The position numbers and the translations under genes were made by a program. Below the pieces are notes generated by a model. It searched no databases. It had not been told where the DNA came from and saw only the letters and a program-made list of their open reading frames with translations. Shown in pieces: positions 1,440 to 41,387 of a stretch of 64,000 nt of DNA. Every line of letters starts with the position of its first letter. Position 1 is the stretch's first letter. The DNA comes from Klenkia marina (lineage in GTDB: Bacteria > Actinomycetota > Actinomycetes > Mycobacteriales > Geodermatophilaceae): contig NZ_FMUH01000001.1 of assembly GCF_900101025.1 (NCBI RefSeq), positions 682,001 through 746,000 of the forward strand, read 5' to 3'.

Positions 1440-1756
1440 CCGCCGCGGTGGCGGTCGGCCTGCTGGTGGCCGGCGGCTCGTACCTGGTGCTGCAGCGCGG
1501 CCTGCTGCGCGTCGTCCTCGGGTTCGTGCTGCTCGGGCACGCGATGGTCGTGCTCGTGCTGGCCGCCGGCGGTGATCGCGGCGGGTTCGCGCTGCCCGGC
1601 AACGGCGGCGGCGAGCCCGCCGACCCGCTCCCCCAGGCCTTCGTGCTCACCGCGGTGGTCATCGCCTTCGCCGTCACCGTCTACCTGCTGGGCCTGCTGC
1701 GCGCCGGCTCCGAGGAGCCCAGCCCGGCCGACGACGATGCGCGGGGCCCGTCGTGA
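1436..1756 (+). CDS. mrpC: Mrp antiporter subunit C
   Basis: Small NuoK-like membrane subunit of 106 residues, the usual size for MrpC. Three hydrophobic helices are visible, with the typical GFVLLGHA segment in the second and the conserved DPLPQAFVLTAVVI motif before the third; a short acidic cytoplasmic tail follows. The GTG start at 1436 overlaps the mrpA stop by four bases and is chosen because the upstream part of this open frame is out-of-frame mrpA sequence. The stop overlaps the mrpD GTG in the same way, so the genes are translationally coupled. Confidence 0.9.
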   Translation: MTAAVAVGLLVAGGSYLVLQRGLLRVVLGFVLLGHAMVVLVLAAGGDRGGFALPGNGGGEPADPLPQAFVLTAVVIAFAVTVYLLGLLRAGSEEPSPADDDARGPS

Positions 1757-3216: not shown

Positions 3217-3548
3217 GCCGCCTGCGCGCCGTCGTGTCGTTCGCCGCCTGGTACGTCGGCCAGTTCCTGGTCGCCAACGTGCGGGTGGCCGGGCACGTGC
3301 TGCGCCCCCGCCTGGCCCACCGGCCGGTCGTGGTCCGCTACGAGCTGCGCGGCCGCACCGACGTCGAGGTGGCCAGCTTCATCGCCCTGGTCAGCCTGAC
3401 CCCCGGCACGCTGGTCGTCGACCGTGCCGAGGGCGTGGTCACCGTGCACGCCGTGCACGCCCTGGACTGCGACCGCGAGCTGGCCGCGATGCGCGACCTG
3501 GAGGACCGGATGCTCGCGGCGTTCGGCCCCAGGGGGAGGACCACGTGA
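3213..3548 (+). CDS. mrpE: Mrp antiporter subunit E, short form
   Basis: MNHE-domain protein of 111 residues. The core is recognisable: a hydrophobic helix near the N-terminus, then YELRGRTDVEVASFIALVSLTPGTLVVD, the family hallmark. Most MrpE proteins are about 160 residues or longer and start with two or three helices; the second MrpE here (13673-14254) has 193. This copy lacks that N-terminal section, and its start sits exactly in the GTGA overlap with mrpD, so it is unlikely to be misplaced. It is probably a naturally shortened subunit; whether function is altered cannot be told from sequence. Confidence 0.88.
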   Translation: MSRLRAVVSFAAWYVGQFLVANVRVAGHVLRPRLAHRPVVVRYELRGRTDVEVASFIALVSLTPGTLVVDRAEGVVTVHAVHALDCDRELAAMRDLEDRMLAAFGPRGRTT

Positions 3549-3814
3549 TCACCCAGGACGTCGTGCTCGACGTCGCCCTCGTGCTGCTCGCCCTGAGCCT
3601 GGTGGTCGCCGCCGTGCGCGCAGTGGTCGGCCCGACCGACGCCGACCGCGTGCTGGCCGTCGACTTCGGGTTCCTCGTCACGCTGTGCGCGGTGGCCCTG
3701 CTGTCGGTCCGCCTGGACACCCCGGCGCTGCTGGACCTCGTCCTGATCGGCACCCTGGTCGGCTTCCTGGCCACGGTCGCGCTGGCCCGACTGGTCGCGA
3801 GGCGGTCGCGGTGA
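3545..3814 (+). CDS. mrpF: Mrp antiporter subunit F
   Basis: Small subunit of 89 residues with three hydrophobic helices and the family's GPTDADRVLAVD motif after the first helix. It belongs to the small-subunit cluster (E, F, G) needed for assembly of the Mrp complex. The GTG start overlaps the mrpE stop and the stop overlaps the mrpG GTG, both as GTGA. Confidence 0.9.
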   Translation: MITQDVVLDVALVLLALSLVVAAVRAVVGPTDADRVLAVDFGFLVTLCAVALLSVRLDTPALLDLVLIGTLVGFLATVALARLVARRSR

Positions 3815-12924: not shown

Positions 12925-13347
12925 TCAGCGGGTGGGACGGGCCTCGGGGCCGTCGGCGGGCTCGTCCGCATCGGGGTCGCCCTCGGGGTGCACCGGGTGC
13001 GGACGGGCCGGCAGCGTGTCGCCGGTGGTGCCCAGCTCGTCGACCACGAGCAGGTCGCGGCGCACGTGCCGGCGCCGGTAGGCGATGCGGCTGACCATGT
13101 GCGCGCTGACCGGGGCGGTGAGCAGCTGGAAGACCGCGACCAGCACCAGCATCCACACGATGGGCTGGCCGGTGAGCCGGATGACCGCGCCGGTCATCAC
13201 CAGCAGCACGCCCAGCACCTGCGGCTTGGTGGCGGCGTGCATGCGGTTGAGCACGTCGGGGAAGCGCACCAGGCCGAGCCCGGCGGTCAGGCAGAGGAAG
13301 CAGCCGAGCACCAGGCAGATCGAGGCGACGACGTCGGCGGCGCTCAC
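12925..13347 (-). CDS. mrpG: Mrp antiporter subunit G, second operon
   Basis: 140 residues with three helices and GLVRFPDVLNRMHAATKPQVLG, the MnhG signature. A hydrophilic tail of some 50 residues rich in Asp, Glu and Pro follows. Last gene of the minus-strand Mrp operon. GTG start at 13347 overlaps the mrpF stop (13344) by four bases. Confidence 0.9.
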   Translation of the reverse strand: MSAADVVASICLVLGCFLCLTAGLGLVRFPDVLNRMHAATKPQVLGVLLVMTGAVIRLTGQPIVWMLVLVAVFQLLTAPVSAHMVSRIAYRRRHVRRDLLVVDELGTTGDTLPARPHPVHPEGDPDADEPADGPEARPTR

Positions 13348-13676
13348 GGGGCCTCCTCCCGACCCTGCCTGGTCGACCCGCCGACCACGGGCTCCTCGTC
13401 CGGGCCGGGCTCGGTGGCCACCAGCATGCCGCCGATGTACCGGGCCACCGAGACCGAGCCGACGAAGGCGAGCAGGGCGACCACCAGCAGGACGGGCTCC
13501 AGCGAGATGTCGCGGTACACCGCGCAGTAGACGGCGATGCCGCAGGCGATGGTGACCAGCAGGGCGTCGGTGGACACCACCCGGTCCAGCAGCGAGGGGC
13601 CGATGGCCAACCGGGCCAGGATCAGCACGGCGCCGGCGCCCAGCAATGCGAAGCAGACGATCGCGACCACGGTCAT
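13344..13676 (-). CDS. mrpF: Mrp antiporter subunit F, second operon
   Basis: 110 residues: three helices and the family motif GPSLLDRVVSTDALLV, then a charged C-terminal tail longer than in the first MrpF (89 residues). The ATG at 13676 overlaps the mrpE stop (ATGA) and is chosen over upstream continuations of the frame, which read as Arg-rich shadow of mrpE. Confidence 0.9.
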   Translation of the reverse strand: MTVVAIVCFALLGAGAVLILARLAIGPSLLDRVVSTDALLVTIACGIAVYCAVYRDISLEPVLLVVALLAFVGSVSVARYIGGMLVATEPGPDEEPVVGGSTRQGREEAP

Positions 13677-14254
13677 CGCTGGCTCATCCTCTCGGTGCCG
13701 TCGATCTCGGGGGTCACGGTGCCGGGTGCGTCCAGCCGCGCGATGTCCTCGGCGGAGCCGAAGGCGCGCACGACGCGGTCCTCCATGCCCAGCACGTCGG
13801 CCCGCAGCCGCTCGACGTGGGCCGCGTCGCGCACCTGCACCAGGTGGACCGCCATGGTCGAGTGCTCGCGGTCCAGGTCGAGCACCAGCGACCCGGGCAC
13901 CAGCGAGAGGGCCTCGGCGATGACGGTGAGCAGCAGGTCGGAGTCGGTGCGCAGCTGCACGGTGATGATCGCCGAGCGGTGGGTGCCGGGCCGGAACGCC
14001 AGCCACGACACCTCGACGCTGGACACCACAAGGTCGGCCAGGAACCGGCCCACGAACCGGACCGCGGCCACCGGCCGGAACGCCGCGACCGTCTCGACGG
14101 TGGGCAGCGGCAGCAGCGTCGTGATGACCAGCGCGATCACGACGCCGCTGAGCAGGTTGGCCCAGGAGAACGTGCCCCAGAGCAGGTTCCAGACCAGCAC
14201 CAGCCAGACCAGCAGGAAGCCCTGCTGGCGCAGCCGGGAGACCCGGGCGGTCAC
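13673..14254 (-). CDS. mrpE: Mrp antiporter subunit E, second operon
   Basis: 193-residue MNHE protein. Two or three N-terminal helices (LVWLVLVWNLLWGTFSWANLL and following) precede the conserved domain with FRPGTHRSAIITVQLRTDSD and SLVPGSLVLDLD. This is the full-length type, unlike the 111-residue MrpE at 3213-3548. GTG start overlaps the mrpD stop as GTGA. Confidence 0.9.
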   Translation of the reverse strand: MTARVSRLRQQGFLLVWLVLVWNLLWGTFSWANLLSGVVIALVITTLLPLPTVETVAAFRPVAAVRFVGRFLADLVVSSVEVSWLAFRPGTHRSAIITVQLRTDSDLLLTVIAEALSLVPGSLVLDLDREHSTMAVHLVQVRDAAHVERLRADVLGMEDRVVRAFGSAEDIARLDAPGTVTPEIDGTERMSQR

Positions 14255-15831
14255 GGGATCGCCCCTTCGCCGAAGACGGACTCGATGTAGGGCGATCGGT
14301 CGAGCAGGTCGGTGGCGGCGCGGTCGGCGACCCCGTAGAGCACGCCGCCGAAGACGGTGATGGCCAGCGTCACCGCGACGAACCCGGCGGTGGCGGCCAC
14401 CATCGTGCGCGGCAGCCGGGCGGCCTGCAGCTCCTCGGTGGTGGTCGACGTGCCGGGCGCCGGGCGGATCGCCTCGACGTCCTCGTCGGCGGTGTCCACC
14501 GCACGGGGCCGCCAGAACGCACGGCCCCACACGCGGGCGATGGCGACCAGGGTGAGCAGGCTGGTGAGCACGGCCCCGCCGACCAGCACGTAGGGGCCCA
14601 CCCCGCCCATGGCCACCCCGGCCTCGATGAGGCCCAGCTTGCCGATGAAGCCCGACAGCGGCGGGATGCCGGCCAGGTTCATCGCCGGGACGAAGAACAG
14701 GATCGCCAGCAGCGGCGAGGCCTTGGCCAACCCGCCCAGCTTCTCGGTGTTCGTCGTCCCGCCGCGGCGCTCGACCAGGCCGGTGGCCAGGAACAGGGTG
14801 GTCTGGATGGCGATGTGGTGGACCACGTAGAAGATCGCGCCGGCGAAGCCGGCCGTCGTCCCCAGGGCGACGCCGAACACCATGTAGCCGATGTGGCTGA
14901 CCAGGGTGAACGAGAGCATGCGCTTGACGTCGGTCTGCGCGACCGCGCCCAGGATGCCGATCACCATGGTGGCCAGCGCTGCCCACAGCAGGACGTCGTC
15001 GAGCGCGCCGTCGGGGAACAGCAGCGTGTTGGTGCGGATGATCGCGTAGACGCCGACCTTGGTGAGCAGCCCGGCGAACACCGCGGTGACCGGGGCCGGC
15101 GCGGTCGGGTAGCTGTCGGGCAGCCACGCCGACAGCGGGAACACCGCGGCCTTGATGCCGAAGGCGACCAGCAGCATGGACTGCAGCAGCAGCTGCGTGC
15201 CGTCGGGCAGGTCACCGAGCCGGACGGCGAGCTGGGCCATGTTGACGGTGCCGGTGGCGGCGTAGACCAGCCCGATCGCGGCCAGGAAGACCAGCGAGCT
15301 CATCAGGCTGACCACCACGTAGGTGATGCCCGCCCGGATGCGGCCGGCCGTGCCGCCGAGGGTCAGCAGCACGTAGCTGGCCGCCAGCAGCACCTCGAAG
15401 CCGACGTAGAGGTTGAACAGGTCACCGGCCAGGAAGGCGTTGCTCACGCCGGCCACCAGGACCAGGTAGGTCGGGTGGAAGATCGACAGCGGGGTGTCGG
15501 TCTCCTCGCCGTCGGCCAGACCCTGCCCGACGGCGAACACCAGCACGCCCAGGGTGACGGTGTTGGCCACCACGAGCATGAGCGCACTGAGCCGGTCGAC
15601 GACCAGCACGATGCCCAGCGGCACCGGCCACCCGCCCACCGACACCGACGTCGCGCCCTGGTCGTCGGCGAGCACGAGCAGCGCCACCGAGACGGCGAGC
15701 ACCCCGCTGAGGACGACGATGCTCACGGTGCGCTGCAGCTGGGGGTGCCGGCCGACCAGCAGCGCGGCGGCCGCGCCCAGCAGCGGCAGCAGCACCGGCA
15801 GCGGGGTGAGCACCCGGATCAGGTCGTCCAT
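14251..15831 (-). CDS. mrpD: Mrp antiporter subunit D, second operon
   Basis: 526-residue NuoM/N-like antiporter module. Typical segments are DLFNLYVGFEVLLAASYVLLTLGG, GIKAAVFPLSAWLPDSYPTAPAPVTAVFAGLLTK (with the conserved Lys) and LVSHIGYMVFG. About 14 helices; a hydrophilic loop rich in Asp and Thr near residue 440 is specific to this copy. ATG start at 15831 forms an ATGA overlap with mrpC. Confidence 0.93.
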   Translation of the reverse strand: MDDLIRVLTPLPVLLPLLGAAAALLVGRHPQLQRTVSIVVLSGVLAVSVALLVLADDQGATSVSVGGWPVPLGIVLVVDRLSALMLVVANTVTLGVLVFAVGQGLADGEETDTPLSIFHPTYLVLVAGVSNAFLAGDLFNLYVGFEVLLAASYVLLTLGGTAGRIRAGITYVVVSLMSSLVFLAAIGLVYAATGTVNMAQLAVRLGDLPDGTQLLLQSMLLVAFGIKAAVFPLSAWLPDSYPTAPAPVTAVFAGLLTKVGVYAIIRTNTLLFPDGALDDVLLWAALATMVIGILGAVAQTDVKRMLSFTLVSHIGYMVFGVALGTTAGFAGAIFYVVHHIAIQTTLFLATGLVERRGGTTNTEKLGGLAKASPLLAILFFVPAMNLAGIPPLSGFIGKLGLIEAGVAMGGVGPYVLVGGAVLTSLLTLVAIARVWGRAFWRPRAVDTADEDVEAIRPAPGTSTTTEELQAARLPRTMVAATAGFVAVTLAITVFGGVLYGVADRAATDLLDRSPYIESVFGEGAIP

Positions 15832-16427
15832 CAGTGCTCCTCCTCCCGGTCGACGGGGCGGCCGCCCGCGGGGGTGCGGTCGGGGGTGCCGGCGGCGCGG
15901 GCCTCGGCGGACTCGTTCTCGGCCGCCTCCTCCCGGGCCAGCGCCAGGGCGACGTCGTCCGAGGGCGGGGTGACCTCACCGTGCAGGGGGTCGCGCTCGA
16001 CGGTGAACCCGTCGCCGGGCCCGCGGTCGGCGGGGTCCATCGCCTCGGGGTCCATGTCGTCGGCGTCGATCTCCTCGCGGGTGGCCACGCGGAGGTCCTC
16101 GGCGTCGTCCTGCACGACCTCGTCGCGCACCAGCCGCCACGACCGGTAGATCATCGCCAGCACGAACGCCGAGATGCCGAACGTGATGACGATGGCGGTG
16201 AGCACCAGCGCCTGCGGCAGCGGGTCGTTGATCAGCGAGGTGTCCGACACGGGCAGGATCGGCGCCAGCCCGGCCACCCCGCCGGCCGACAGCAGCAGCA
16301 CGTTGGTGGCGTTGCCCAGCAGCAGGAAGCCCAGCAGCACGCGGGTGAGGCTGCGGTCCAGCAGCAGGTAGACGCCGGCGGCGTAGAGCCCGGCGACGAT
16401 GACCGGCAGCACCACGGTGGGGGTCAT
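15831..16427 (-). CDS. mrpC: Mrp antiporter subunit C with long acidic tail, second operon
   Basis: NuoK-like subunit of 198 residues. The first ~110 residues are a normal MrpC (LLLDRSLTRVLLGFLLLGNA, then INDPLPQALVLTAIVITFG). The remaining ~85 residues are a hydrophilic extension dense in Asp and Glu, absent from the first MrpC (106 residues). ATG start at 16427 overlaps the mrpA stop (16424). Confidence 0.92.
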   Translation of the reverse strand: MTPTVVLPVIVAGLYAAGVYLLLDRSLTRVLLGFLLLGNATNVLLLSAGGVAGLAPILPVSDTSLINDPLPQALVLTAIVITFGISAFVLAMIYRSWRLVRDEVVQDDAEDLRVATREEIDADDMDPEAMDPADRGPGDGFTVERDPLHGEVTPPSDDVALALAREEAAENESAEARAAGTPDRTPAGGRPVDREEEH

Positions 16428-19315
16428 CGGGTCGCCTCCGCGGTGCCTGCGCCGTCGCGGGCGTCGTCGTCGCCGTCCTCGTCGTCGGCGTCGATCTGCG
16501 CGCCGAGGCTGCGCAGGACGTCGAGCACGAGCCCGATGACGATCAGGTAGACGCCCATGTCGAAGAACAGCGAGGTGACCAGCTTGACGTCGCCGAGCAC
16601 CGGGAGGGTGGCCTGCAGGATCGTGGTCTGCAGGGCGTCGACGCCCAGCACCAGCCCGGCGACGCCCGTGCCCCCGGCCAGCAGGAGACCCCCGCCGAGC
16701 AGCTTGCCGGGGTCGACCGGGGCGGCCTCGCCGAGTTCGTAGCGTCCGCCGGCCAGGTAGCGCAGCACGAGGGCGAGCCCGGCCACCAGGCCGCCGGCGA
16801 ACCCGCCGCCGGGCACGTTGTGCCCGCTGAACAGCAGGTACACGCTGAGGACGACGATGGTGTGGAAGAGCACCCGGGTGATCACCTCGAGGATGACCGA
16901 GCGCCGCCGCGGGTCCAGGGTGGCGCTGGCGGCCAGCCAGCGGTCGCGGGGGGCGCGCCGGGCAGCCGAGCGCGCGACGCCCCCGGCCCGGGCTACCGCA
17001 CCCGTGCGCTCGCGCAGGAACACGAGGCTGGCGACGCCGGTGGCGACGACGACGAGCAGCGAGACCTCGAGCATGGTGTCCCAGGCGCGGATGTCGACCA
17101 GGGTGACGTTGACGATGTTCTCCCCGCCGCCGAACTCGTAGGCCTGCTCGGGGTAGTCGACCGACACCGGCGTCGCGGTGCGCGCACCGAGCGCCACGAC
17201 GCCGACGCCGCCCATGAGCAGCCCGACGGCGACCGCGATGAGCCCGCGCGCGGTGCGCTCCTTGGCGCGGTGCCGGTCGGAGATGTCCTTGGGCAGCTTG
17301 CGCAGCACGAGCACGAAGGTGACCAGCGTGAGCGTCTCGACCAGGAACTGGGTGAGCGCCAGGTCGGGCGCGCCCTGCAGGGCGAACAGGACGCCGACGC
17401 CGTACCCGGTCACCCCGACCACCAGGACGGCCGACAGCCGCTGCCGGATGCGGATGGCCAACGCTGCGGCGCCCAGGACGACGACGCCGACGAGCGCCTG
17501 CACGGGGGTGTCCCAGAGCCGCACGTCCTCGGGCCAGGGGGCGCTGAAGACCAGGGCGGAGCCCGGCAGCAGAACCAGCACGACCAGGATCACGCCCAGG
17601 TAGGTGGGCAGCGATCCGCGCTGGGTGGTGCGGGTGGCCGTCTGGGCCACGCGGTCCAGGCCGCGCATGGTGTGCCAGTAGCCCTCGTCGGCGGAGGGGT
17701 CGACGGCCAGCCGGCGCTGCAGCCGGGCGACCAGGTCGCGGGCGGCGAACAGCGCCAGGCCGCCGCCGAGGGTGACCAGCGAGAGCAGCAGGGCCGGTTG
17801 CCAGCCATGCCACAGCGCGATCTTCTCGGCCTCCTCGGCCACCAGCGGGAGCGTGTCGGCGTAGGGGGCCACCAGCGGATCGAGCAGGCCGGAGAACGGC
17901 CCGGCCAGCAGGCCGAGGACGGCGAGCACGGCGGGGGCGGCCAGGAACGCCGGGCCCGGGCGGTGCAGGTGGGCCGGCGACGGGCGGTCGGCGGCGCACC
18001 GGCGCAGCGACCCCCCGGTGCCGAAGGCCCCCCACAGGAACCGGGCGGTGTAGGCGACGGTGAGCACCGACCCGAGCACCAGGCCCAGCAGGGTGAGCAT
18101 CGCCCAGGTGCGGCCCTCGAGCCCGCCGTCGAGCAGGGCGGTGAACGCGGCCTCCTTGCCGACGAACCCCAGCAGCGGAGGCAACCCGGCCATCGAGGCA
18201 CCGGCCAGGGTGGCGATGACCGCCAGCACGGGGACCCGGCGGCCCAGACCGTTGACCTCGCGCAGGTCGCGGGTGCCGCAGGCGTGGTCGACGATGCCGA
18301 CGACGAGGAACAGCGTGGACTTGAACAGCCCGTGGGCCAGCAGCATCACGATGCCGGCCGCAGCGGCCTCGCGGCTGCCGATGCCGACCAGCACCATCAG
18401 GAAGCCCAGCTGGCTGACCGTGCCGAAGGCCAGCAGGAGCTTGAGGTCGTACTGCCGCAGCGCGCGGTACCCGCCGAGCAGCATGGTGGCCACGCCCAGC
18501 CCGATGAGCACCGGCCGCCAGCCCGGGGTGTCGGCGAAGCCGGGGGCCAGCCGGGCGACCAGGTAGATGCCGGCCTTCACCATCGCCGCGGCGTGCAGGT
18601 ACGCGCTGGTGGGGGTCGGCGCCTCCATGGCCGCGGGCAGCCAGAAGTGGAAGGGCACCATGGCCGACTTCGTGACCGCACCGGCCAGCACCAGCAGGAC
18701 GCCGACGGTGACCTGCGCCCCGCTGCCGGGGTTCGCGACGACCTCGCTGAGCAGGTAGCTGCCGCTGGCCTGGCCGATCATCACGAGCCCGACCAGCATG
18801 GCCAGCCCGCCGGCGGTGGTGACCACCAGCGCCTGCTGGGCGGCGCGGCGGCCGGCGACCTTGGCGCCGCTGCCGCCGATCAGCAGGAAGGAGAAGACGG
18901 TGGTGAGCTCCCAGAACACGTAGAGCAGGAGCATGTCGTCGGCGACGACGAGACCGAGCATCGAGCCGGCGAAGGCCATGAGCACGCCGGCGAACCGACC
19001 CAGGCCCTCGTCGCCGGGCTCGAAGTAGCGGGCGCAGTAGACGAACACCAGGGCACCGACACCGGTGACCAACGCGGCGATGGTCAGCGCGAGCGCGTCG
19101 AGGCGCAGGGTGACGTCGAGGTCGAGGGCGGGGATCCACGTGGTGCGCTCGTCGACCGTGCCGCCGTCGAGCACGGTGCTCAGCTGGGCGCCGAGCCAGA
19201 CGAACCCGGCGGCGGGCACCAGCGCCAGCGCGTAGTAGGCCGACCGCCCCCACCAGCGCACCAGCAGCGGCGCCAGGCAGGCTGCCGCCAGGTGTGCGAG
19301 GAGCAGCAGGCCCAC
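16424..19315 (-). CDS. mrpA: Mrp antiporter subunit A fused to B, second operon
   Basis: 963 residues. N-terminal NuoL-like antiporter (DDMLLLYVFWELTTVFSFLLIG; AVTKSAMVPFHFWLPAAMEAPTPTSAYLHAAAMVKAGIYL; LLAFGTVSQLGFLMVL), then MbhD/MbhE-type helices, then an MnhB domain with FSGHNVPGGGFAGGLVAGLALVLRYL. The GTG at 19315 is preceded by GGAGA and begins directly before the first helix; a start at 19420 would overlap the divergent regulatory gene and add a non-conserved charged stretch, so I reject it. First gene of a six-gene operon joined by 4-nt overlaps. Confidence 0.93.
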   Translation of the reverse strand: MGLLLLAHLAAACLAPLLVRWWGRSAYYALALVPAAGFVWLGAQLSTVLDGGTVDERTTWIPALDLDVTLRLDALALTIAALVTGVGALVFVYCARYFEPGDEGLGRFAGVLMAFAGSMLGLVVADDMLLLYVFWELTTVFSFLLIGGSGAKVAGRRAAQQALVVTTAGGLAMLVGLVMIGQASGSYLLSEVVANPGSGAQVTVGVLLVLAGAVTKSAMVPFHFWLPAAMEAPTPTSAYLHAAAMVKAGIYLVARLAPGFADTPGWRPVLIGLGVATMLLGGYRALRQYDLKLLLAFGTVSQLGFLMVLVGIGSREAAAAGIVMLLAHGLFKSTLFLVVGIVDHACGTRDLREVNGLGRRVPVLAVIATLAGASMAGLPPLLGFVGKEAAFTALLDGGLEGRTWAMLTLLGLVLGSVLTVAYTARFLWGAFGTGGSLRRCAADRPSPAHLHRPGPAFLAAPAVLAVLGLLAGPFSGLLDPLVAPYADTLPLVAEEAEKIALWHGWQPALLLSLVTLGGGLALFAARDLVARLQRRLAVDPSADEGYWHTMRGLDRVAQTATRTTQRGSLPTYLGVILVVLVLLPGSALVFSAPWPEDVRLWDTPVQALVGVVVLGAAALAIRIRQRLSAVLVVGVTGYGVGVLFALQGAPDLALTQFLVETLTLVTFVLVLRKLPKDISDRHRAKERTARGLIAVAVGLLMGGVGVVALGARTATPVSVDYPEQAYEFGGGENIVNVTLVDIRAWDTMLEVSLLVVVATGVASLVFLRERTGAVARAGGVARSAARRAPRDRWLAASATLDPRRRSVILEVITRVLFHTIVVLSVYLLFSGHNVPGGGFAGGLVAGLALVLRYLAGGRYELGEAAPVDPGKLLGGGLLLAGGTGVAGLVLGVDALQTTILQATLPVLGDVKLVTSLFFDMGVYLIVIGLVLDVLRSLGAQIDADDEDGDDDARDGAGTAEATR

Positions 19316-21786: not shown

Positions 21787-21808
21787 GGGCACTGCCGATA
21801 GGCGCGGC
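21787..21808 (+). promoter_or_regulatory. Conserved promoter element, copy 1
   Basis: GGGCACTGCCGATAGG (21787-21802) recurs base for base at 23919-23934. In both places GATAGG occupies -12 to -7 from a GTG start, six bases before it. This suggests the same sigma factor and leaderless transcripts for the two paralogous surface-protein genes. Function is inferred. Confidence 0.5.
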
Positions 21809-23215
21809 GTGACCTCCCGTCTGCTCGCCCGCCGCCCCCTCCAGCTGGGCGGGCTGCTCCTCGCCGCCACCACCGTGGGCCTGGCCACTTCCCCGGCCGC
21901 CCTCGCCGAGGACCTCCCGACGCCGCAGGCCGACCCGTCGGCCGATGCCGGCACCCCGCAGGTGCTGCCCCCCGCCCCCACCACGTCGACCACCACGTCG
22001 ACCACCACCGGGACCGACACCACCGGGGGCGGATCGTCCGTGACCGACCAGTCGGCCGACCAGGACGGGGCGGCGCCGCAGGTCGCCGCGGCGAACCCGC
22101 CCGGCGCCCATTTCGGCACCGGCAAGCTGAACCCGTCCCTGAACACCACCGCGGACCCCCTGCCCGCGGGCGCGGTCCTGGCCGCCGCCGGCGCGCAGCT
22201 CGAGATCCGCTTCAGCCAGATGGGCGGCGCGCCGTCCACGGCCAGCGGCACCTGCGACCTCGTCGCCCCGTACCCGTCGAGCCCCCTCATCACCGACTGC
22301 AGGTTCCGTCCCGGCCACTCGCTGCAGACCCAGGACTACGGTGCGGGCCCGGCCCCGACCCTGCCGGCCGACTCCGTCTTCACCCTCACCCTCGTGCAGC
22401 CGCCGACGTCGGGTCAGCTGCTGGCTGCACCCATGTCCGTCCAGGGGTGGACGGACACCACCGCGAGCCCCGGCTTGGACAGCGACCTGCGGCTGGCTGT
22501 CAGGCACGGCTACCGGGCGCTCGGGGTGGCCGTGGTCGACGGCGCACCGGCCGGCACCCGGGTGCTGCTGTGCCCGGCCGTCGGAAACGGCTGCGCGAAC
22601 GGGTCGACACCGGTCCCCGCCACCACCGACGCCTCCGGCCTGGCCACGTTCGACGGCCGCTACCTGCCCGGTGACTACCTGCTCATCCGCGGCACCGAGC
22701 GCACCCGGTTCACCGTGGCCCCGGCCACCACCACGACCGAGCGCGACACCCCGCTGCTGCTGAGCCTCGGCGTGCCCGTCACCCCGCTCACCCCGACCCC
22801 GACCCCTGCGCCGCCCACCTCGGCACCGGGCGCCGCCACCGCCGCGTCGGCGACGCTGGCCGTGGGTCGGCAGCAGACCGTCACGGCCGGCGGGTTCACC
22901 CCCGGTGAGACGGTGCGCGGCACGCTGTACTCGACCCCGGTCGACCTGGGCACCGCGGTCGCCGATGCCCAGGGCGTCGCCACCTTCACCTTCACCGTCC
23001 CCGCGGGCCTGGAGGTCGGCGTGCACACGGTCACGGCGGTGGGGCTGACCAGCGGCTCGACCAGCACGGTCACCTTCACCGTGACCGCGGGCGGCGACGC
23101 GGTCCTCGCGACGACCGGTGTGGACGTGGCCCCGCTGCTCGGCCTCGGCGCCCTGGCCGTCGGTGCGGGCTCGGCGCTGGCGTTCGCCGGCACGCGGCGT
23201 CGTCGGACGGCATGA
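21809..23215 (+). CDS. Secreted LAXTG-anchored surface protein, copy 1
   Basis: 468 residues. Signal peptide in the first ~35 (VTSRLLARRPLQLGG, then a hydrophobic core ending near AALAED). A Thr-rich linker follows, then a segment with FGTGKLNPSLNTTADPLPAGAVLAAAGAQ and four Cys that could form disulfides, a Pro/Thr linker, and an Ig-like surface domain (AVGRQQTVTAGGFTPGETVRGTLYS) around residues 350-430. The C-terminus has LATTG (433-437), a hydrophobic helix and RRRR: a class E sortase signal (LAXTG). Function unknown. It heads a two-gene unit repeated downstream. Confidence 0.8.
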   Translation: MTSRLLARRPLQLGGLLLAATTVGLATSPAALAEDLPTPQADPSADAGTPQVLPPAPTTSTTTSTTTGTDTTGGGSSVTDQSADQDGAAPQVAAANPPGAHFGTGKLNPSLNTTADPLPAGAVLAAAGAQLEIRFSQMGGAPSTASGTCDLVAPYPSSPLITDCRFRPGHSLQTQDYGAGPAPTLPADSVFTLTLVQPPTSGQLLAAPMSVQGWTDTTASPGLDSDLRLAVRHGYRALGVAVVDGAPAGTRVLLCPAVGNGCANGSTPVPATTDASGLATFDGRYLPGDYLLIRGTERTRFTVAPATTTTERDTPLLLSLGVPVTPLTPTPTPAPPTSAPGAATAASATLAVGRQQTVTAGGFTPGETVRGTLYSTPVDLGTAVADAQGVATFTFTVPAGLEVGVHTVTAVGLTSGSTSTVTFTVTAGGDAVLATTGVDVAPLLGLGALAVGAGSALAFAGTRRRRTA

Positions 23216-23222
23216 TCCCCGC

Positions 23223-23933
23223 GTGACCCCCACCGTCGGCACCGACGTCTGGTACGCCCGGCACACCGTCCCGGACGGCGGGGTGGTGCTGGTCGGCGTC
23301 GCCGGGCCGGGTTTCCCCGACGGCGCGGTGGTCGACCTGCCCGGCCCGCCGGCCCACCCGACGGGCTGGTTGGCCGAGGCGCACGTGCGGGACGCCGGCC
23401 ACGTCCCCGTGCTGGTGCGGGTCTCCCCCGACCTGGCGCCCGGGTCGCCGCACCTGTGGTTCACCCTCGGCCCGGCCGGCGCCGGCGACGCCGTCGACCT
23501 GGTCGCCTTCTCCACCACGGCGCTGGCCGACGGCCGCGTGGTCCCCGCCGCCGACCTAGCCGACGCCGGGGTCACCTGGGCCGACCAGGTGGCGGCCGTG
23601 CGCTGGTCGCCGTCCAGCGGTCTGGTGTCGCAGGTCTACGTCGCCCCGCGCGCCCGGCGGCGCCGGGTCGGCACCCGGGTGGTGATCACCGCCGACGCCG
23701 TCCGGGTGGCCCTGGGGTGGGCGCCGCTGGTCAGCGACGGCCGGGTCACCGACCTGGGCGATGCGTGGCTGTCGGCGCAGTCCGAGGCGTGGCGGGCCCG
23801 GGTGCCGGCCGGCGGCGAGCGTCCGCCGCCGATGACGCCGGAGGACGAGGCGATCGGGCTGCCCACCCGGCTGCTGGTCCGGGACGAGCCCACGGCCTCG
23901 GCACGTACCAACCGGGTCGGGCACTGCCGATAG
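23223..23933 (+). CDS. GNAT-like protein of unknown function, copy 1
   Basis: 236 residues, GTG start 7 bases after the surface-protein stop. I do not recognise a named family. Residues ~140-165 (VSQVYVAPRARRRRVGTRVV) resemble the acetyl-CoA-binding motif A of GNAT acetyltransferases (V-x-P-x-x-R-x-x-G-x-G), though the second Gly is not conserved. The N-terminal half (DVWYARHTVPDG, PDGAVVDLPGPP) is shared with the paralogue at 24897-25520; the two look roughly half identical by eye. No signal peptide or membrane helix, so cytoplasmic. The stop TAG lies inside the promoter element of the next gene. Confidence 0.7.
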   Translation: MTPTVGTDVWYARHTVPDGGVVLVGVAGPGFPDGAVVDLPGPPAHPTGWLAEAHVRDAGHVPVLVRVSPDLAPGSPHLWFTLGPAGAGDAVDLVAFSTTALADGRVVPAADLADAGVTWADQVAAVRWSPSSGLVSQVYVAPRARRRRVGTRVVITADAVRVALGWAPLVSDGRVTDLGDAWLSAQSEAWRARVPAGGERPPPMTPEDEAIGLPTRLLVRDEPTASARTNRVGHCR

Positions 23934-23940
23934 GGGTCGC
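23919..23940 (+). promoter_or_regulatory. Conserved promoter element, copy 2
   Basis: Identical 16-mer to the element at 21787-21802, again with GATAGG at -12 to -7 of a GTG start (23941). Here it doubles as the last codons (GHCR and TAG stop) of the preceding GNAT-like gene, so the promoter was kept although it is embedded in coding sequence. Confidence 0.5.
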
Positions 23941-24900
23941 GTGACCTCTCGCCCGCTCGTGCGCCGTCCCCTGCAGGTCGGCGGCCTGCTGCTCGCCACG
24001 GCCGCCCTCGGCACGGTGCTGGCCCCGGCCGCGTCGGCGATGGTCGACCCCGCCGCCCCGGTCGACCAGACGCCCGACGAGGCCCCGGTCGCCGCTCCGC
24101 GGGTGCTGACGACCTCGCCGGTCTCCTACTTGGGCTCTGAATCCGACCGGGTGGAGTTCGGGGTGGGCAAGGTGCAGGTCTACGTCGCCCCGGCAGCGGA
24201 GGTCGATGCGCCGGAGGAGGAGGACCTGGCGGGAGCGCAGGTCAAGGTGACCCTGCCGGACCCGGACAGCGACGACGGAGCCGAGGTCAGCGCCATCTGC
24301 ACCACCGTCTCGACCGGCCTGTGCGTCTTCCCGGAGGGCTCCCCGGGCATCGTCGACGGGATGCTGTCGGTCAACGGGCGGCAGACGTTCACCGTGGAGC
24401 AGATCGCCGCTCCGACATCGCGGAGATTCACCCTCCCCACGACGGAGAACGCCGTCGTGCACGGGGTCGGCGGCTACTGGATGCCGCTCGAGACGGAGTT
24501 CTCCGAGCTCGACGGCACGGGCGCGACTGCCCCTGTCGGAGCTCCGGCCGTGGTGCAGGCCCTGCAGTGGGACATCGAGCCCCGGCCGGACGACGTCATC
24601 GGCACGATCACCTTCTTCGACCCGCTGGTCACGGTCTCCGCGGGGCAGCCCGGCGACACCGCCGTGCCGCCCGCCCCGGGCATGGCCGGGGCCGCCCCCG
24701 ACGCGACCGCGGCTGCGCCGGGCGTCCCGGTGGTCGCCGATGCGACCGCCGGCACGGCGACGGACGCGGCGACCACCCCGGGCGCCTCGACCCTGGCGCT
24801 GACCGGCGCCGACGTCGGCCCGATGGCCGCGGTCGGCGGCGGCCTGCTGGTGGCGGGGGCCGCCGGCCTCGTGCTCGCCCGTCGCCGGGCGCCCCGCTGA
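23941..24900 (+). CDS. Secreted LAXTG-anchored surface protein, copy 2
   Basis: 319 residues. The signal peptide (VTSRPLVRRPLQVGGLLLATAAL...) is clearly homologous to that of copy 1 at DNA and protein level. The mature part shares the FGVGK segment but is otherwise diverged and lacks the Ig-like domain. It is acidic near residues 80-110 and has two Cys (ICTTVSTGLC). The C-terminus carries LALTG (285-289), a hydrophobic helix and Arg-rich tail, again a class E sortase signal. Unknown function; the partner GNAT-like gene overlaps its stop. Confidence 0.8.
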   Translation: MTSRPLVRRPLQVGGLLLATAALGTVLAPAASAMVDPAAPVDQTPDEAPVAAPRVLTTSPVSYLGSESDRVEFGVGKVQVYVAPAAEVDAPEEEDLAGAQVKVTLPDPDSDDGAEVSAICTTVSTGLCVFPEGSPGIVDGMLSVNGRQTFTVEQIAAPTSRRFTLPTTENAVVHGVGGYWMPLETEFSELDGTGATAPVGAPAVVQALQWDIEPRPDDVIGTITFFDPLVTVSAGQPGDTAVPPAPGMAGAAPDATAAAPGVPVVADATAGTATDAATTPGASTLALTGADVGPMAAVGGGLLVAGAAGLVLARRRAPR

Positions 24901-25520
24901 CCTCGCTCTGGTACGCCCGTCACCCGGTGGGCGACGGGCACGTGCTGGTCGGCGTGGCCTCGATAGCCTTCCCCGACGGTGCCGTGGTCGACCACCCCGG
25001 CCCGCCGTCCCGGCCCGCCGGCTGGCAGGTGGAGGCGCACGTGCCGCAGCCGGGGCGGGCGCCGTCGCGGGTGCTGGTGTCCGAGGACGTCGCCCCGCAG
25101 GCACCGCACCTGTGGTGCGTGCTGCGCGCCGCCGGGCCGCAGGCACCCGGCGGGGACGTCGACCTCGTCGCCTTCTCCACGGCTCACCTGGACGACGGCA
25201 CGCTGGTCGGCGCGGCGACGCTCGAGCAGCTCGACGTCGGCTGGGCCAACCAGGTCGGCGCGGTGCGGTGGAGCGCGGGCACCGGTGTGGTCGGCCAGGT
25301 GTTCGTGGCCCCCGAGCACCGCCGGCTGCGGGTCGCGGCGAAGCTGCTGATGGTCGCCGCGGGCGTGCGGGTGGCCCAGGGCTGGGCCTCGTTGCGCAGC
25401 GACGGCCGGCTCACCGACCTCGGCGACACCTGGCTGACCGCCGCCCCCGACTGGTGGCGCTCACGGGTCCCCGAGCGCACGGCCCACCTGCCCCCGATGG
25501 ATCTCAGGCCAGGCGGGTGA
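24897..25520 (+). CDS. GNAT-like protein of unknown function, copy 2 (probable CTG start)
   Basis: 207 residues, paralogue of the protein at 23223-23933: LWYARHPVGDG, FPDGAVVDHPGPP, DVDLVAFSTAHLDDG and LRSDGRLTDLGDTWL align without gaps. The motif-A-like stretch is VGQVFVAPEHRRLRVAAKLL, so the Gly residues expected to hold acetyl-CoA are replaced by Ala. Alignment puts the start at a CTG in a CTGA overlap with the surface-protein stop; no ATG, GTG or TTG lies at the homologous place. It lacks the C-terminal ~25 residues of copy 1. Its last 17 bases overlap the convergent transglutaminase gene. Confidence 0.65.
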   Translation: MTSLWYARHPVGDGHVLVGVASIAFPDGAVVDHPGPPSRPAGWQVEAHVPQPGRAPSRVLVSEDVAPQAPHLWCVLRAAGPQAPGGDVDLVAFSTAHLDDGTLVGAATLEQLDVGWANQVGAVRWSAGTGVVGQVFVAPEHRRLRVAAKLLMVAAGVRVAQGWASLRSDGRLTDLGDTWLTAAPDWWRSRVPERTAHLPPMDLRPGG

Positions 25521-37208: not shown

Positions 37209-39227
37209 CTAGAAGCCTCCGCCGCCGAAGTCGCCGCCGCCCCCGAAGTCGCCGCCGCCGAAGTCGCCCCCGCCGCCGTCGCCGCCGCCGAAGCCGCCGC
37301 CGTAGCCACCGCCCAGGCCGCCGAAGAGGATGTTCCCCAGCGCCACGCCCGCGATGCCGCCGACCACCGCGTCGCCCATGCCACCACCACGTCGGCCGTA
37401 GCCCCGGCCGTAGCCGTAGCCGCCGCCCTGGCCCCAGCCGTCCTGCTGCTGGTAGCGCTGGACGTCCTGCTGCGCGGCGGTCATCGCCTGCTGGGCCATG
37501 CGCTCGGCCGTCTGCGCCTCCCGCAGCGCGGGCACCGGGTCCTTGGCCGCGGCCAGCCGGTTGGCCTCGTCGAGGTGCCGGTCGGCCTCGGCCAGCCGGG
37601 TGCGGGCCTGTGCGCCGACGGCCCCGCGGCGGGTGGCCACGAAGTCGTTGGTGGCGTCGACGGCGGAGGCCGCCGCGCTGAGCGCCTGACCGAGGTGGGC
37701 CAGTGCCCGCTCCTGCTGCTGCCGGGCGTCGCGGGCCGGCTCGAGCGCGGCCTCCAGCGCCTGGTCGGCGTCGTCGAGGGTGCGGGTGGTGCCGACCGGG
37801 TCGGGCAGCTCGCCGTCCGGGACCGGCCGCAGCGCCGCGGTCAGCGCGGACTCGGCCCGGGCCAGCTGCTCCCGCAGGCCGGGGGTGTCCACGCCCTTCT
37901 CGAGCAAGGTCCTCGCCTCGGCGATGTCGCGCTCGGTCTCCTCCCGCACGGCGGTGAACCGGGCGGGGGCGTCCCGCAGGTCGGCGACGAGCTTGTCGAC
38001 GGCGGCGAGCAGGCGCCGGGCCTGTGCCAGGGCGTCCTCGGCGGCGCGCACCGCCGGCACGGCACCGGCCTGCCGACCCGCGGTCAGTTCGTCCTGCCCG
38101 TGCTGCACGGCCTGGCGGGCCAGCCCGACGCGCTCGGCGGCCTCCCGGCCGTTGTCGGCCACCGCGGCCCAGGTGGAGCGGGCGTACCGCACCTGCAGGT
38201 CGGCCAGGGCCTGTTCCGCCGGGGCGATGCGGGCCTGCACCTGGTCGACGTCGGACGTCAACCGCTGCAGCGTGGCAGGGGCGTCGTCCTCGAGGCGGCG
38301 CAGCTCGCGGTGCGCGGCGGCCTGCTGGTCGAGCCGGCCGCGGGCCGAGCCGGTCAGCGCGAGCAGCTCGGCCAGCATGCGGCGCTGCGTGGGCTCGTCC
38401 TCGGGGATCTCGTCGTCGAGCTCCTGCCGGATCTGGAAGGCGCGGCCCAGCTCGGCGCGGGACTCCTCCAGCGCCGCCGACGACGAGGTGACCGAGTCGG
38501 GGCCGTACTGGGCCCGGGCGTAGTCGACGTCGATCTGGCTGGTCTTGATCGCCTCGTCCAGGGCGAGCAGCTCGCCGCTGGCCCGGTAGTGCAGGTCCTG
38601 CGTGGAGGTGCCGTTGTGCGGGTCGCGGGCGGCCTCCTCGGCCGCGGCGATCTCGGCCGCGCGGGCGCGGGATGCCTCCACGGCCTTCTTCTTCCGCCGG
38701 TTGCGCACCAGGGCGTACCCGCCGGCACCGAGGACGGCGACCCCCACCAGCCCACCGAGGGCGTAGGTGCCGGTGTCGCTGGGCTGCAGCTCCTGCGCGA
38801 GCGTCGTGGCCGCCGCGGCGTACTCACCCTGGGAGAGCAGGGGCTCGACGTCGTCCTGGACGATCGACTGCAGGCTCGTACCGGTCTCCTGCGTCCCGTA
38901 GCCGACCCGGTTCGTGTCCGTCGCCACGGCGAGCAGGACGTCGTTGCCACCCAGCCCGCCGTCGGCGTAGGCCTGCTGCGTCCACTCCCCCGGCGTCAGG
39001 TCGTCGAAGCTGTCGACGTAGACGACGTACAGCGACGTGCCGTCGTCCTGGAGGGCGTCGATGGCGTCCTGGACCTGCTGCTCCTCACTGCTGGAGAGCA
39101 CGTCGGACTGATCGGTGACGCGGTCGACCGGCGCGAACGGTTCCTCGGCGAGGGCCGGCGCAGCGCCGGTGAGCGCGAGGGTGAGACCGACGGCGGACCC
39201 GGCGAGCAGGCGGAGCGGCAGACGCAT
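37209..39227 (-). CDS. TPM-domain protein with coiled-coil and Gly-rich tail
   Basis: 672 residues. Signal peptide (MRLPLRLLAGSAVGLTLALTGAAPALAEE), extracellular TPM domain of ~120 residues (VDRVTDQSDVLSSSEEQQVQDAIDAL, LYVVYVDSFDDLTPGEWTQQAY), one membrane helix (YALGGLVGVAVLGAGGYALV), then ~400 residues of cytoplasmic helical, coiled-coil sequence rich in Ala, Glu, Arg and Gln, and a C-terminal tail of about 80 residues dominated by Gly with Tyr, Phe and Asp. Function of this family is unknown. ATG at 39227. A paralogue with a different tail follows upstream on the same strand. Confidence 0.85.
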   Translation of the reverse strand: MRLPLRLLAGSAVGLTLALTGAAPALAEEPFAPVDRVTDQSDVLSSSEEQQVQDAIDALQDDGTSLYVVYVDSFDDLTPGEWTQQAYADGGLGGNDVLLAVATDTNRVGYGTQETGTSLQSIVQDDVEPLLSQGEYAAAATTLAQELQPSDTGTYALGGLVGVAVLGAGGYALVRNRRKKKAVEASRARAAEIAAAEEAARDPHNGTSTQDLHYRASGELLALDEAIKTSQIDVDYARAQYGPDSVTSSSAALEESRAELGRAFQIRQELDDEIPEDEPTQRRMLAELLALTGSARGRLDQQAAAHRELRRLEDDAPATLQRLTSDVDQVQARIAPAEQALADLQVRYARSTWAAVADNGREAAERVGLARQAVQHGQDELTAGRQAGAVPAVRAAEDALAQARRLLAAVDKLVADLRDAPARFTAVREETERDIAEARTLLEKGVDTPGLREQLARAESALTAALRPVPDGELPDPVGTTRTLDDADQALEAALEPARDARQQQERALAHLGQALSAAASAVDATNDFVATRRGAVGAQARTRLAEADRHLDEANRLAAAKDPVPALREAQTAERMAQQAMTAAQQDVQRYQQQDGWGQGGGYGYGRGYGRRGGGMGDAVVGGIAGVALGNILFGGLGGGYGGGFGGGDGGGGDFGGGDFGGGGDFGGGGF

Positions 39228-39398
39228 GACCCCATCGTCCCTGCCGCCGGCCACCCCCGCCGCAGCCCGGGTCCGATCCGGTCCCTGCACGGCCGCACCG
39301 CACCCCGGCTCGCGACCGCGCAGCGACCACGCCCGAACCGCGGCGGCCCGCGCCGGGACGGGGGGGCGGACGTCGCCGCGGGCCGCGGAACGGTCGGA

Positions 39399-41387
39399 TC
39401 AGAAGCGGCCGCCGCGGCTGCGCCGTCCGCTGGACCGGCTGCTGCTGGACCGCCGCGACGACGACCGCGAGGAGGACCGCGACGACGAGCGCGACCGGGA
39501 GCGGTAGGACGACCCGCCACCCCAGGAACCGCCCCACGAGCCGCCCGAGCTCCACCCGCCACCGGACCCGCCCCACCCGGACTCCCGGCTGCGCGCATCG
39601 GCGGCGCGCCGGGCAGCGGCGAGGTCGGCCTGCAGCTGCTGCCGGGCGGCCTGCGCGGCGCCCTGGGCCTGCACCGCCGCGGCCAACGCGGTCACCGGGT
39701 CGGCCCCACCGGTCGCCTCGGCGGTGACCAGGGCCCGCTCGGCCTCGGCCAGCCGACTGCGCGCGGACCCGCCGACGCCGGACCCGCCGAGCTCGACCCG
39801 GCCCCGCGCGTCGCCGACGGCCGCCCGTGCGGCGGCGAGGGCAGCGGGCAGGGCCTCGGTCGCCTTGGCCACCCGGTCGCGCGCCTGGTCGACGGCCAGC
39901 AGGGCGGCGTCGAGCACCTCGTCGGCCTCGGTCAGCCGGGCCAGCGCGGTCAGCGGGTCGCGCGGCACCGAGGTGAACGCCTGCTGCGCGGCCGCCCGGC
40001 CGGTCTCGGCGGCGGCCAGCACGCCGGCCGCCACTCCCCCACCGGCCGCCGCGAGCTCGGCCGGCGGCACCGTGCGCACACGGGCGATCTCGGCGTCCAC
40101 CTCGGCCAGCAGCCGCGGCACCTCCGTGTCGGCGGCGGTCAACCGCTGCTCGTGCCGGGTGATGCCGTCGAGCAGGGTCTGCGCCTGGGTGACGGCGGCC
40201 TCGCAGGCGTGCACGGGGGTGACGGCCTGGCCGTCGGTGCCCGCGGCGACGGCCTGCTGCCCGGCGGCGAGGGCGGCCTCGGCGGCGGTGACGGACTGCT
40301 CGGCCCGTGGGACCACGTCGGCGACCTCGGCCAGCGCCGGTGCGGCGTAGCGCTGCTGCAGGCTGGCGACCCGGGTGGCCTCGCCGCCCAGCCGGCCGCG
40401 CAGCGCGGTGACCCGCCCGGCCAGGCCGGCGAGCACCTGGGGTGCGGTGTTCTGCAGGTCGCGTAGCGCGGCGAAGTCGGCGGCCGCGGCGTCCAGGCGG
40501 GTGTCGGCGGCGTGCAGCAGCTCGAGCTGGTGGGCCAGCTTCTCCCGGACGGCGCGGTCCTCCAGCGGGGTGTCCGGCGCCTCGAGCAGGTCGAGCTCCT
40601 GCTGGACGGCGAAGGCCTGGTCGAGCTCGCCGCGCGCGGTGGCCAGGGTGGCGGCGTGCTCGGCGACGGCCTGCTCGCCGTACTGCAGGCGGGCGTAGTC
40701 GAGGTCGAGCTGGCAGGCCCGCACGGCCTCGTCGACCTCCAGCAGCCCACTGCCCACCCGGTTGCGCAGCTGGTCGGTGCTCTCGTCGGGGAACGGCCCG
40801 GCCGCCCGGATCGCCGCGGCCTCCTCCGCGGCCCGCCGCCGACGCCGGACTAGTGCATACCCCCCGCCACCGAGCGCGGCAGCACCGACCACGCCGGCCA
40901 GCACGTACCGGGGAGTGGTGCTGGGCCGCAGCTCGTCGGTCAGGGCCTGCACCCCGCCCACCCAGTCCTGGTCGCGGATCTGCTGCTCGACGGCGGTGTT
41001 CAGGTCCTGGAACTCGGCGTCGTCGACCAGCTCGTAGGAGGCCGACACCGCGAACGAGCGGTCCTCGACGGCCACCGCGAGCAGGACGTCGTCGTCCCCC
41101 AGGTCCGACAGCTCGGCCGAGCGGTCGGCCCAGTCGGTGGCCGAGGCGCCGTCGAACGAGTCGACGAGGGCGACGAAGACCTGCACGCCCTCGTCGGCGA
41201 CCAGGTCGTCGATCGACTGCTGCACGGCGTCCCGGTCGGACGACGAGAGCACCCCGGCGGTGTCGGTGACCTCGCTGACCAACCGCGACGGCTCGTCGGC
41301 GGCGGCGGGCCCGGCCAGCTGCACCGGCCCCACCCCCAGCGCGAGGACGGCGAGGAGGCGGGCCGGCACGGCACGGGGTCGCGGCAT
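39399..41387 (-). CDS. TPM-domain protein with coiled-coil and Arg-Ser repeat tail
   Basis: 662 residues and the same layout as its neighbour: signal peptide, TPM domain (VTDTAGVLSSSDRDAVQQSIDDL, VFVALVDSFDGASATDWADR), membrane helix (YVLAGVVGAAALGGGGYALV), long helical cytoplasmic region. The tail differs: a Gly/Ser/Trp stretch, then 37 residues made almost only of Ser and Arg (from SSYRSRSRSSS), like eukaryotic RS domains. By topology this tail is cytoplasmic. ATG 41387 has GGATGGGG upstream; ATG 41396 is also possible. Tandem duplication with divergent tails; role unknown. Confidence 0.83.
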   Translation of the reverse strand: MPRPRAVPARLLAVLALGVGPVQLAGPAAADEPSRLVSEVTDTAGVLSSSDRDAVQQSIDDLVADEGVQVFVALVDSFDGASATDWADRSAELSDLGDDDVLLAVAVEDRSFAVSASYELVDDAEFQDLNTAVEQQIRDQDWVGGVQALTDELRPSTTPRYVLAGVVGAAALGGGGYALVRRRRRAAEEAAAIRAAGPFPDESTDQLRNRVGSGLLEVDEAVRACQLDLDYARLQYGEQAVAEHAATLATARGELDQAFAVQQELDLLEAPDTPLEDRAVREKLAHQLELLHAADTRLDAAAADFAALRDLQNTAPQVLAGLAGRVTALRGRLGGEATRVASLQQRYAAPALAEVADVVPRAEQSVTAAEAALAAGQQAVAAGTDGQAVTPVHACEAAVTQAQTLLDGITRHEQRLTAADTEVPRLLAEVDAEIARVRTVPPAELAAAGGGVAAGVLAAAETGRAAAQQAFTSVPRDPLTALARLTEADEVLDAALLAVDQARDRVAKATEALPAALAAARAAVGDARGRVELGGSGVGGSARSRLAEAERALVTAEATGGADPVTALAAAVQAQGAAQAARQQLQADLAAARRAADARSRESGWGGSGGGWSSGGSWGGSWGGGSSYRSRSRSSSRSSSRSSSRRSSSSRSSGRRSRGGRF

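Follow-up and report, generated by a model that had tools for sequence, protein, structure and literature searches.

Paired genes for a GNAT-like protein and a LAXTG surface protein in Klenkia marina and other Actinomycetota: a candidate system of lysine acylation

Two adjoining gene pairs are found in a stretch of 64,000 nucleotides of Klenkia marina (contig NZ_FMUH01000001.1, positions 682,001 to 746,000; this whole stretch is called the window). Each pair encodes a secreted surface protein with a C-terminal LAXTG motif (A1, A2; family A) and a GNAT-like protein (B1, B2; family B). B is proposed to be a dedicated lysine N-acyltransferase that would modify, before export, the lysine of a short motif, [FY]G..K, in its own surface protein; from sequence comparisons, this reading is given a probability of roughly 0.55. 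It is favoured because it explains together the conserved pairing of A and B, the motif, the absence of the motif from A orthologues whose loci are B-less, and the GNAT-like sequence of B. Characteristic residues are also changed in a clade of B that has no adjacent A.

Conserved pairing of A and B

The B set includes 92 genes: class I, 21; class II, 18; class III, 16; class IV, 3; outside Geodermatophilaceae, 33; one fragment (L092). Not included are L093, a marginal match, and the first fragment of the split L088 gene. The class II genes are called orphans. A secreted A is encoded beside or near 68 of the 70 evaluable non-orphan B (68/89 when the denominator also takes in the 18 orphans and a pseudogene): class I, 19/19; class III, 16/16; class IV, 3/3; outside Geodermatophilaceae, 30/32, two of the 30 (L137 and L153) showing the end of A only. 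Three B genes located at contig ends (L054, L057, L139) are not evaluable. The original prediction had looked to a neighbourhood search for a recurrent pairing; such a pairing is what was seen, and B genes partnerless in most genomes were not.

A C-terminal anchor was found in 61 of the 68 paired A, 55 by script and six by eye (L129 twice, L134, L138, L152, L153). The seven others are those of L133, L136 (twice), L137, L157, L177 and L183. Same-strand neighbours of the first set overlap or are separated by at most 13 nucleotides in 30 of 34 cases. A and B diverge in both pairs of L129 and in L134, and in L138 the A gene comes some 1 kb after B, with a transposase-like frame between them. Because these arrangements are included, the pairing is not just operon inheritance. 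Distances between A are correlated with distances between B, with r=0.72 for 35 pairs and, within class I, r=0.58 for 19 pairs; in each case none of 2000 permutations gave a value as high, the kinship of the species being uncorrected.

Organisation of the pairs in the window

Features are given with their coordinates in the window, their strand and, in brackets, the evidence used.

21787..21802, + strand: 16-nucleotide leader, copy 1, before A1; exact copy at 23919-23934
21809..23215, + strand: A1, predicted secreted LAXTG-anchored surface protein, 468 amino acids, beta-sandwich domains (sequence, model, profile with relatives)
22112..22126, + strand: FGTGK motif of A1; its lysine, residue 106, is the sole lysine of A1 (motif scan, lysine count)
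23105..23119, + strand: LATTG sorting motif of A1 (sequence)
23223..23933, + strand: B1, GNAT-like partner, 236 amino acids, GTG start, signal peptide not seen by eye (sequence comparison)
23919..23934, + strand: 16-nucleotide leader, copy 2, before A2, overlapping the end of B1 (exact repeat)
23941..24900, + strand: A2, predicted secreted LAXTG-anchored surface protein, 319 amino acids (sequence)
24157..24171, + strand: FGVGK motif of A2 (motif scan)
24793..24807, + strand: LALTG sorting motif of A2 (sequence)
24897..25520, + strand: B2, GNAT-like partner, 207 amino acids, probable CTG start overlapping the A2 stop (sequence, Pfam, start-codon scan)
25251..25253, + strand: Gln119 of B2 (residue counts among B, given below)
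25296..25298, + strand: Gln134 of B2 (residue counts among B, given below)
25305..25340, + strand: end of a strand and GNAT motif-A loop of B2, residues 137-148, first Gly replaced by Arg (model, alignment)

The order A1, B1, A2, B2 and the coordinates were verified as originally predicted; a convergent transglutaminase gene, ending at 25504, follows. The predicted C-terminal LATTG and LALTG were likewise confirmed. After the motif, A1 and A2 each have a hydrophobic segment and then arginines, the layout of a LAXTG substrate; we take these motifs to be class E sortase signals. With the LPXTG_anchor model, A2 scored 14.7 in one scan (cut-off 15.9) and 19.3, above the cut-off, in the genome scan; A1 is in neither list.

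Both pairs had been called homologous. This holds for B1 and B2, which share 57% identity over 201 amino acids. Pairwise comparison of A1 with A2 shows similarity in the signal region (45% over 62 amino acids), weak similarity at the sorting signal and none elsewhere; their wider homology is visible only after relatives are added.

No in-frame ATG, GTG or TTG is found within 300 nucleotides upstream of B2, whose open reading frame opens 576 nucleotides upstream. B2 probably starts at a CTG that overlaps the stop of A2 (CTGA, 24897-24900), as judged from the sequence. The same CTGA overlap is found in three other Klenkia (L044, L045, L046). The start-codon scan gave the same result for L045 and L046 as for the window.

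The 16-nucleotide leaders of A1 and A2 are identical, each ending six nucleotides ahead of a GTG. Two other Klenkia, L045 and L046, have the core of this leader, GCCGATAG, ahead of both A1 and A2. The leader may act as a promoter element for a leaderless mRNA. The chance figure of the repeat tool (mean of 1.25 matches) allows up to 3 mismatches and does not apply to two exact copies.

The [FY]G..K motif and its co-absence with B

The motif follows the signal/linker region of A. It is present in 59 of the 63 A whose N-terminal part is available: 58 as scored and that of L152 after correction of a trimmed start. As scored, it was found in 19/19 A of class I, 12/13 of class III, 3/3 of class IV and 24/28 outside Geodermatophilaceae; L157 is counted as positive but is doubtful, since its motif may be part of a repeat. 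Near-variants are found in the other four A: FGPFPK (L065), FGDFLK (L176), YGAK (L183) and LGGVK (L177). After residue shuffling (200 rounds), 1.4 of the 63 A carried the motif on average and never more than 5. Sixteen of 35 Geodermatophilaceae A have a single lysine after residue 35; it is the lysine of the strict motif in 15 and that of the variant in L065.

Controls are small (11 proteins overall). The motif is in none of seven other anchored proteins of the source genome, chosen by eye among 18 profile matches and four of them cut at their 5' side, and in none of the four filter-passing anchored proteins among 30 loci of eight other genomes.

In class III, the motif was found in none of five A orthologues lacking B, versus 12/13 A with B. 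The B-less loci are those of G033, G060, G073, G074 (genus g12) and G081 (genus g11); no B was found in the stretch examined. The B-less A adjoins the same acyl-CoA dehydrogenase-like gene in G033, G060 and G081 and is one gene away from it in G074; in G073 this neighbour is out of view. By eye, the site of the motif reads LGSVR, LGSVR, VGSTK and VGAVR in four of these A and is unalignable in the fifth. The other A of G074, the one with a B partner (L049), does carry the motif. A link of class III to acyl-CoA metabolism was considered, the pair lying beside genes that resemble, by eye, those of acyl-CoA dehydrogenases and carboxylases; it was rejected, as the B-less loci share these neighbours.

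Residues of B also differ according to the presence of A. Gln134 is found in 73/73 non-orphan B, Gln119 and Ala122 in 72/73 and Met201 in 70/73; each is found in 0/18 orphan B. Arg142, Trp125 and Thr173 are present in 91/91 B.

B, a divergent GNAT-like family

By its sequence, B is a divergent GNAT-like family. B2 passes the gathering score of Pfam Acetyltransf_1 (22.8 versus 20.7 bits) and B1 is below it. Among 52 B members, 38 match Acetyltransf_1 and 38 match Acetyltransf_7 at E<=0.01; eight Pfam families are matched in all. No NCBIfam model matched any of the four window proteins, B1 and B2 included, above its cut-off; elsewhere in the B family, NCBIfam matches are weak and mostly to aminoglycoside enzymes. 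PADLOC gave no defence-system match for the four window proteins. The N-terminal half of B is beta-rich and outside the reach of sequence matches. A hydrophobic N-terminus was not seen by eye in B1 or B2.

GNAT motif A is Q/R-x-x-G-x-G/A. Its second position is Gly or Ala in 90/91 B, both window copies included. Its first Gly is found in 51/91 B: all those of classes II, III and IV, 8/21 of class I and 6/33 outside Geodermatophilaceae. The motif-A glycines had been described as degraded in the window; this is right for the first one, which is Arg in both copies, and not for the second position.

The Arg of the window copies is compatible with the earlier suggestion that these proteins bind rather than catalyse. 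In a more elaborate form of this explanation, B would be a dedicated chaperone or export pilot, i.e. a GNAT fold turned into a binder of the [FY]G..K of nascent A that hands A to the export machinery, the lysine being a binding determinant. The close spacing and overlap of the two genes suggest translational coupling, which would suit such a role. So would the absence of the first Gly from both window B and 27/33 distant B, and so would an RR pattern near the start of 23/36 Geodermatophilaceae A (a crude pattern), compatible with the export of folded proteins. However, a pure binder need not retain features of the coenzyme A (CoA) loop, and for the family as a whole the second Gly/Ala and the invariant Arg142, Trp125 and Thr173 are retained, both motif-A positions being present in all B of classes III and IV. 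The chaperone role is considered unlikely, although it is the strongest of the alternatives.

Fold of A and the role of the motif lysine

The body of A1 is modelled as all-beta. A fold search with this model gave mostly Ig-like matches; a profile search of PDB with A and its relatives gave mostly SpaA/CnaB-type pilins and adhesins. Pfam SpaA is matched by 19/35 A at E<=0.01, A1 itself having no match. BLAST joins 49 of 64 A into one group; the rest are in small groups or singletons. The A of class III (L059, L065, L071, L073, L075 and others), whether B is present or not, end not with LAXTG but with roughly L.T.[SGA][SAG], followed by a hydrophobic stretch and arginines; such an ending may serve as an atypical sorting signal or simply as a membrane anchor.

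The likeness to pilins and CnaB adhesins raises a second alternative, in which the motif lysine is structural or cross-linking: it would be the first-strand lysine of a CnaB/SpaA isopeptide bond or the nucleophile in the sortase-driven joining of A subunits into a fibre, and B would act elsewhere or cap the lysine. Candidate partner columns for such a bond exist in some groups, namely one Asn column in 12/13 class III A and conserved acidic positions among A2-type and Acidimicrobiia-like A, but in the 13 A1-type and the nine order/class-level A every acidic or Asn/Asp column stays below 85%. Moreover, the N..[FY]RT segment persists in 4/5 B-less A that lack the motif lysine. No pilin-type sortase gene is nearby: among the five sortase genes of the source genome, the nearest is about 58 kb from A1. 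The association of the motif with B would also be left unexplained. This role of the lysine is regarded as improbable.

Proposed function

In the lysine acyltransferase reading, A and B would form a two-gene module: A, wall-anchored, with beta-sandwich domains; B, GNAT-like, without signal peptide. B would recognise [FY]G..K where the first folded domain of A begins and move an acyl group, probably from acyl-CoA, onto the amino group of the motif lysine. This acylation would precede the export of A and its attachment to the wall. Each A would keep its own B, and this would explain why pairs are seen both in tandem and at several loci unrelated to each other.

Several results weigh against this reading. 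The predicted GNAT fold is confidently modelled (AlphaFold, predicted local distance difference test of 90.7) and the ten best Foldseek matches in PDB are acetyltransferases, yet these matches are weak (best E 0.11, TM score 0.35; 0/665 at E 0.001); the fold called for by the original prediction is partly supported. The PDB profile search is similarly weak: it gave 27 sequences, nearly all acetyltransferases, aligned around motif A, with a best E of 0.009. The first motif-A Gly is replaced by Arg in both B of the window and is rarely kept outside Geodermatophilaceae. No A was found within the stretch examined for L131 and L166. Class II as a whole, a clade of 18 orphan B beside an ABC-F gene, has no adjacent A. 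In a search of 16 orphan-carrying genomes with an A profile, 11 had no match, four (G010, G020, G028, G098) had an A belonging to another B, and G099 had a C-terminal match only. Other anchored proteins of the source genome, which are unpaired, are lysine-poor too (0-3 lysines in the seven controls), and the idea that having one lysine sets A apart was rejected for this reason. Finally, the counts are not independent, because the B-less A, like the orphan B, stem from only one or a few evolutionary events, and because near-copies occur among the distant B.

A last alternative, the least probable, is that B modifies a wall precursor or a small amine and is merely co-regulated with A, as might be thought from the nearest named GNATs by profile, which are small-molecule enzymes, mostly acting on aminoglycosides; against it, paralogous A each have their own B, several genomes carry two or three B, the distances of A and B co-vary, and motif and B go together.

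Comparison with known systems

CdiC, from class IV CDI systems, is an acyltransferase encoded beside one exported protein, of which it concerns one lysine; according to PMC8510554 and PMC8339906, the CdiA of three systems devoid of cdiC is substituted at this lysine.

CdiC is the closest precedent: by analogy, B would work like HlyC/CdiC from outside that family. As in HlyC/ApxIC and CdiC, a GNAT-like protein is encoded beside one exported protein; the known enzymes act on one or two specific lysines. As in HlyC/CdiC, the specific lysine tracks the enzyme gene, here in the class III A with and without B, the independent events being few. In contrast to HlyC/CdiC, the partner of B is an actinobacterial wall-anchored protein and not an RTX protein or CdiA; no Pfam family of the HlyC/CdiC kind is among the eight matched by the 52 B; and no His, as would be expected from the catalytic His/Asp pair of HlyC/CdiC, is found in the invariant or near-invariant columns of these B. 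ApxIC is without CoA-contacting elements, whereas B keeps features of motif A.

GNAT N-acetyltransferases (Acetyltransf_1 and Acetyltransf_7; AAC(3) and AAC(6') are among the nearest named) share with B the motif-A region, the order of strands and helices, and weak but consistent profile and structure matches. They differ in that the beta-rich N-terminal half of B is unmatched, the first motif-A Gly is often missing from B, and Gln119, Gln134 and the D..xT region characterise the B family. Class E sortase substrates and SpaA/CnaB surface proteins resemble A in their signal peptide, beta-sandwich domains, LAXTG, hydrophobic segment and basic tail. A differs from them in its co-encoded GNAT-like protein and in [FY]G..K, found in none of the 11 control proteins, four of them incomplete.

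No description of the A/B pair was found in searches of the open-licence PMC literature, in agreement with the original prediction, which knew of none.

Distribution and phylogeny of B

With one query, B was found in 45/112 Geodermatophilaceae genomes, the source genome included; two of the 45 have only a fragment or a marginal match. In the order, 111/397 genomes match the B profile (52-member alignment) at E<=0.001, mostly through short motif-A matches, and full-length B outside Geodermatophilaceae are found at only eight places in seven genomes. At E<=1e-10, the profile matches 6/396 genomes of the phylum sample and 7/394 of the class sample, the source genome being counted in each. Because full-length or strong matches are so few in these samples, B is considered as scattered across Actinomycetota outside Geodermatophilaceae. 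A GTDB scan gave 46 loci, 34 of which were set aside as duplicates of loci already in the set. Several genomes have two or three B genes. Near-copies are found among the distant records (L136/L137, L134/L139). L136, an assembly labelled as a Bifidobacterium breve metagenome-assembled genome (MAG), carries two B genes, one of them close to the B of a Microthrixaceae MAG (L133); the label is probably wrong.

In a tree of 89 B, classes I, II and IV each form one starred branch; class III is interrupted only by class IV, which is nested inside it. The two window proteins, B1 and B2, are in separate starred subclades, each with other Klenkia. Because each groups with other Klenkia in its own subclade, the split between B1 and B2 is older than those Klenkia species. 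The description of the locus as a tandem-duplicated module has to be qualified: there are two pairs in tandem, but a fresh duplication was rejected, since B1 and B2 are not mutual closest relatives.

The orphan B of class II (L060, L062, L063 and 15 other loci) keep both motif-A positions and have an N-terminal extension. They perhaps act on a new substrate.

Neighbouring genes of the window

The module adjoins a transglutaminase/Alpha-E/circularly permuted ATP-grasp gene set, of the Anbu type as described in PMC5666114. The set is not counted as part of the module. Joint work of B with this cassette had been suggested, and the cassette was rejected as a partner on its distribution. A transglutaminase gene was found within the examined stretch in 14/16 class I loci, 5/15 of class II, 0/16 of class III (L092 in, L120 out) and 0/3 of class IV; these stretches are of unequal length and some stop at contig ends. 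An ATP-grasp orthologue (>=85% identity) is found in 12/24 chosen B-less genomes, and G095 has a class II B and no ATP-grasp orthologue at this identity. The cassette looks like a bystander because it is distributed largely independently of B.

Two other observations were made by eye. Two adjoining secreted proteins with Gly-rich or Ser/Arg-rich tails, encoded at 37209-41369, resemble each other. Two gene sets, at 1-3814 and 12925-19315, resemble Mrp-type antiporter operons.

Significance

If the proposed function is true, the enzyme, the substrate and the exact residue of an undescribed modification of surface proteins would be named in one step, and a function would be given to GNAT-like proteins that have no NCBIfam name. 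Dedicated lysine acylation of exported proteins would extend from Gram-negative toxins to actinobacterial wall proteins. More tentatively, and at somewhat less than even odds, Actinomycetota may own a dedicated lysine-acylation system for wall-anchored proteins, dispersed among several families, in which a single acyl group would anchor the protein, cap it or prime its contacts: a Gram-positive counterpart of CdiC/HlyC, of separate origin.

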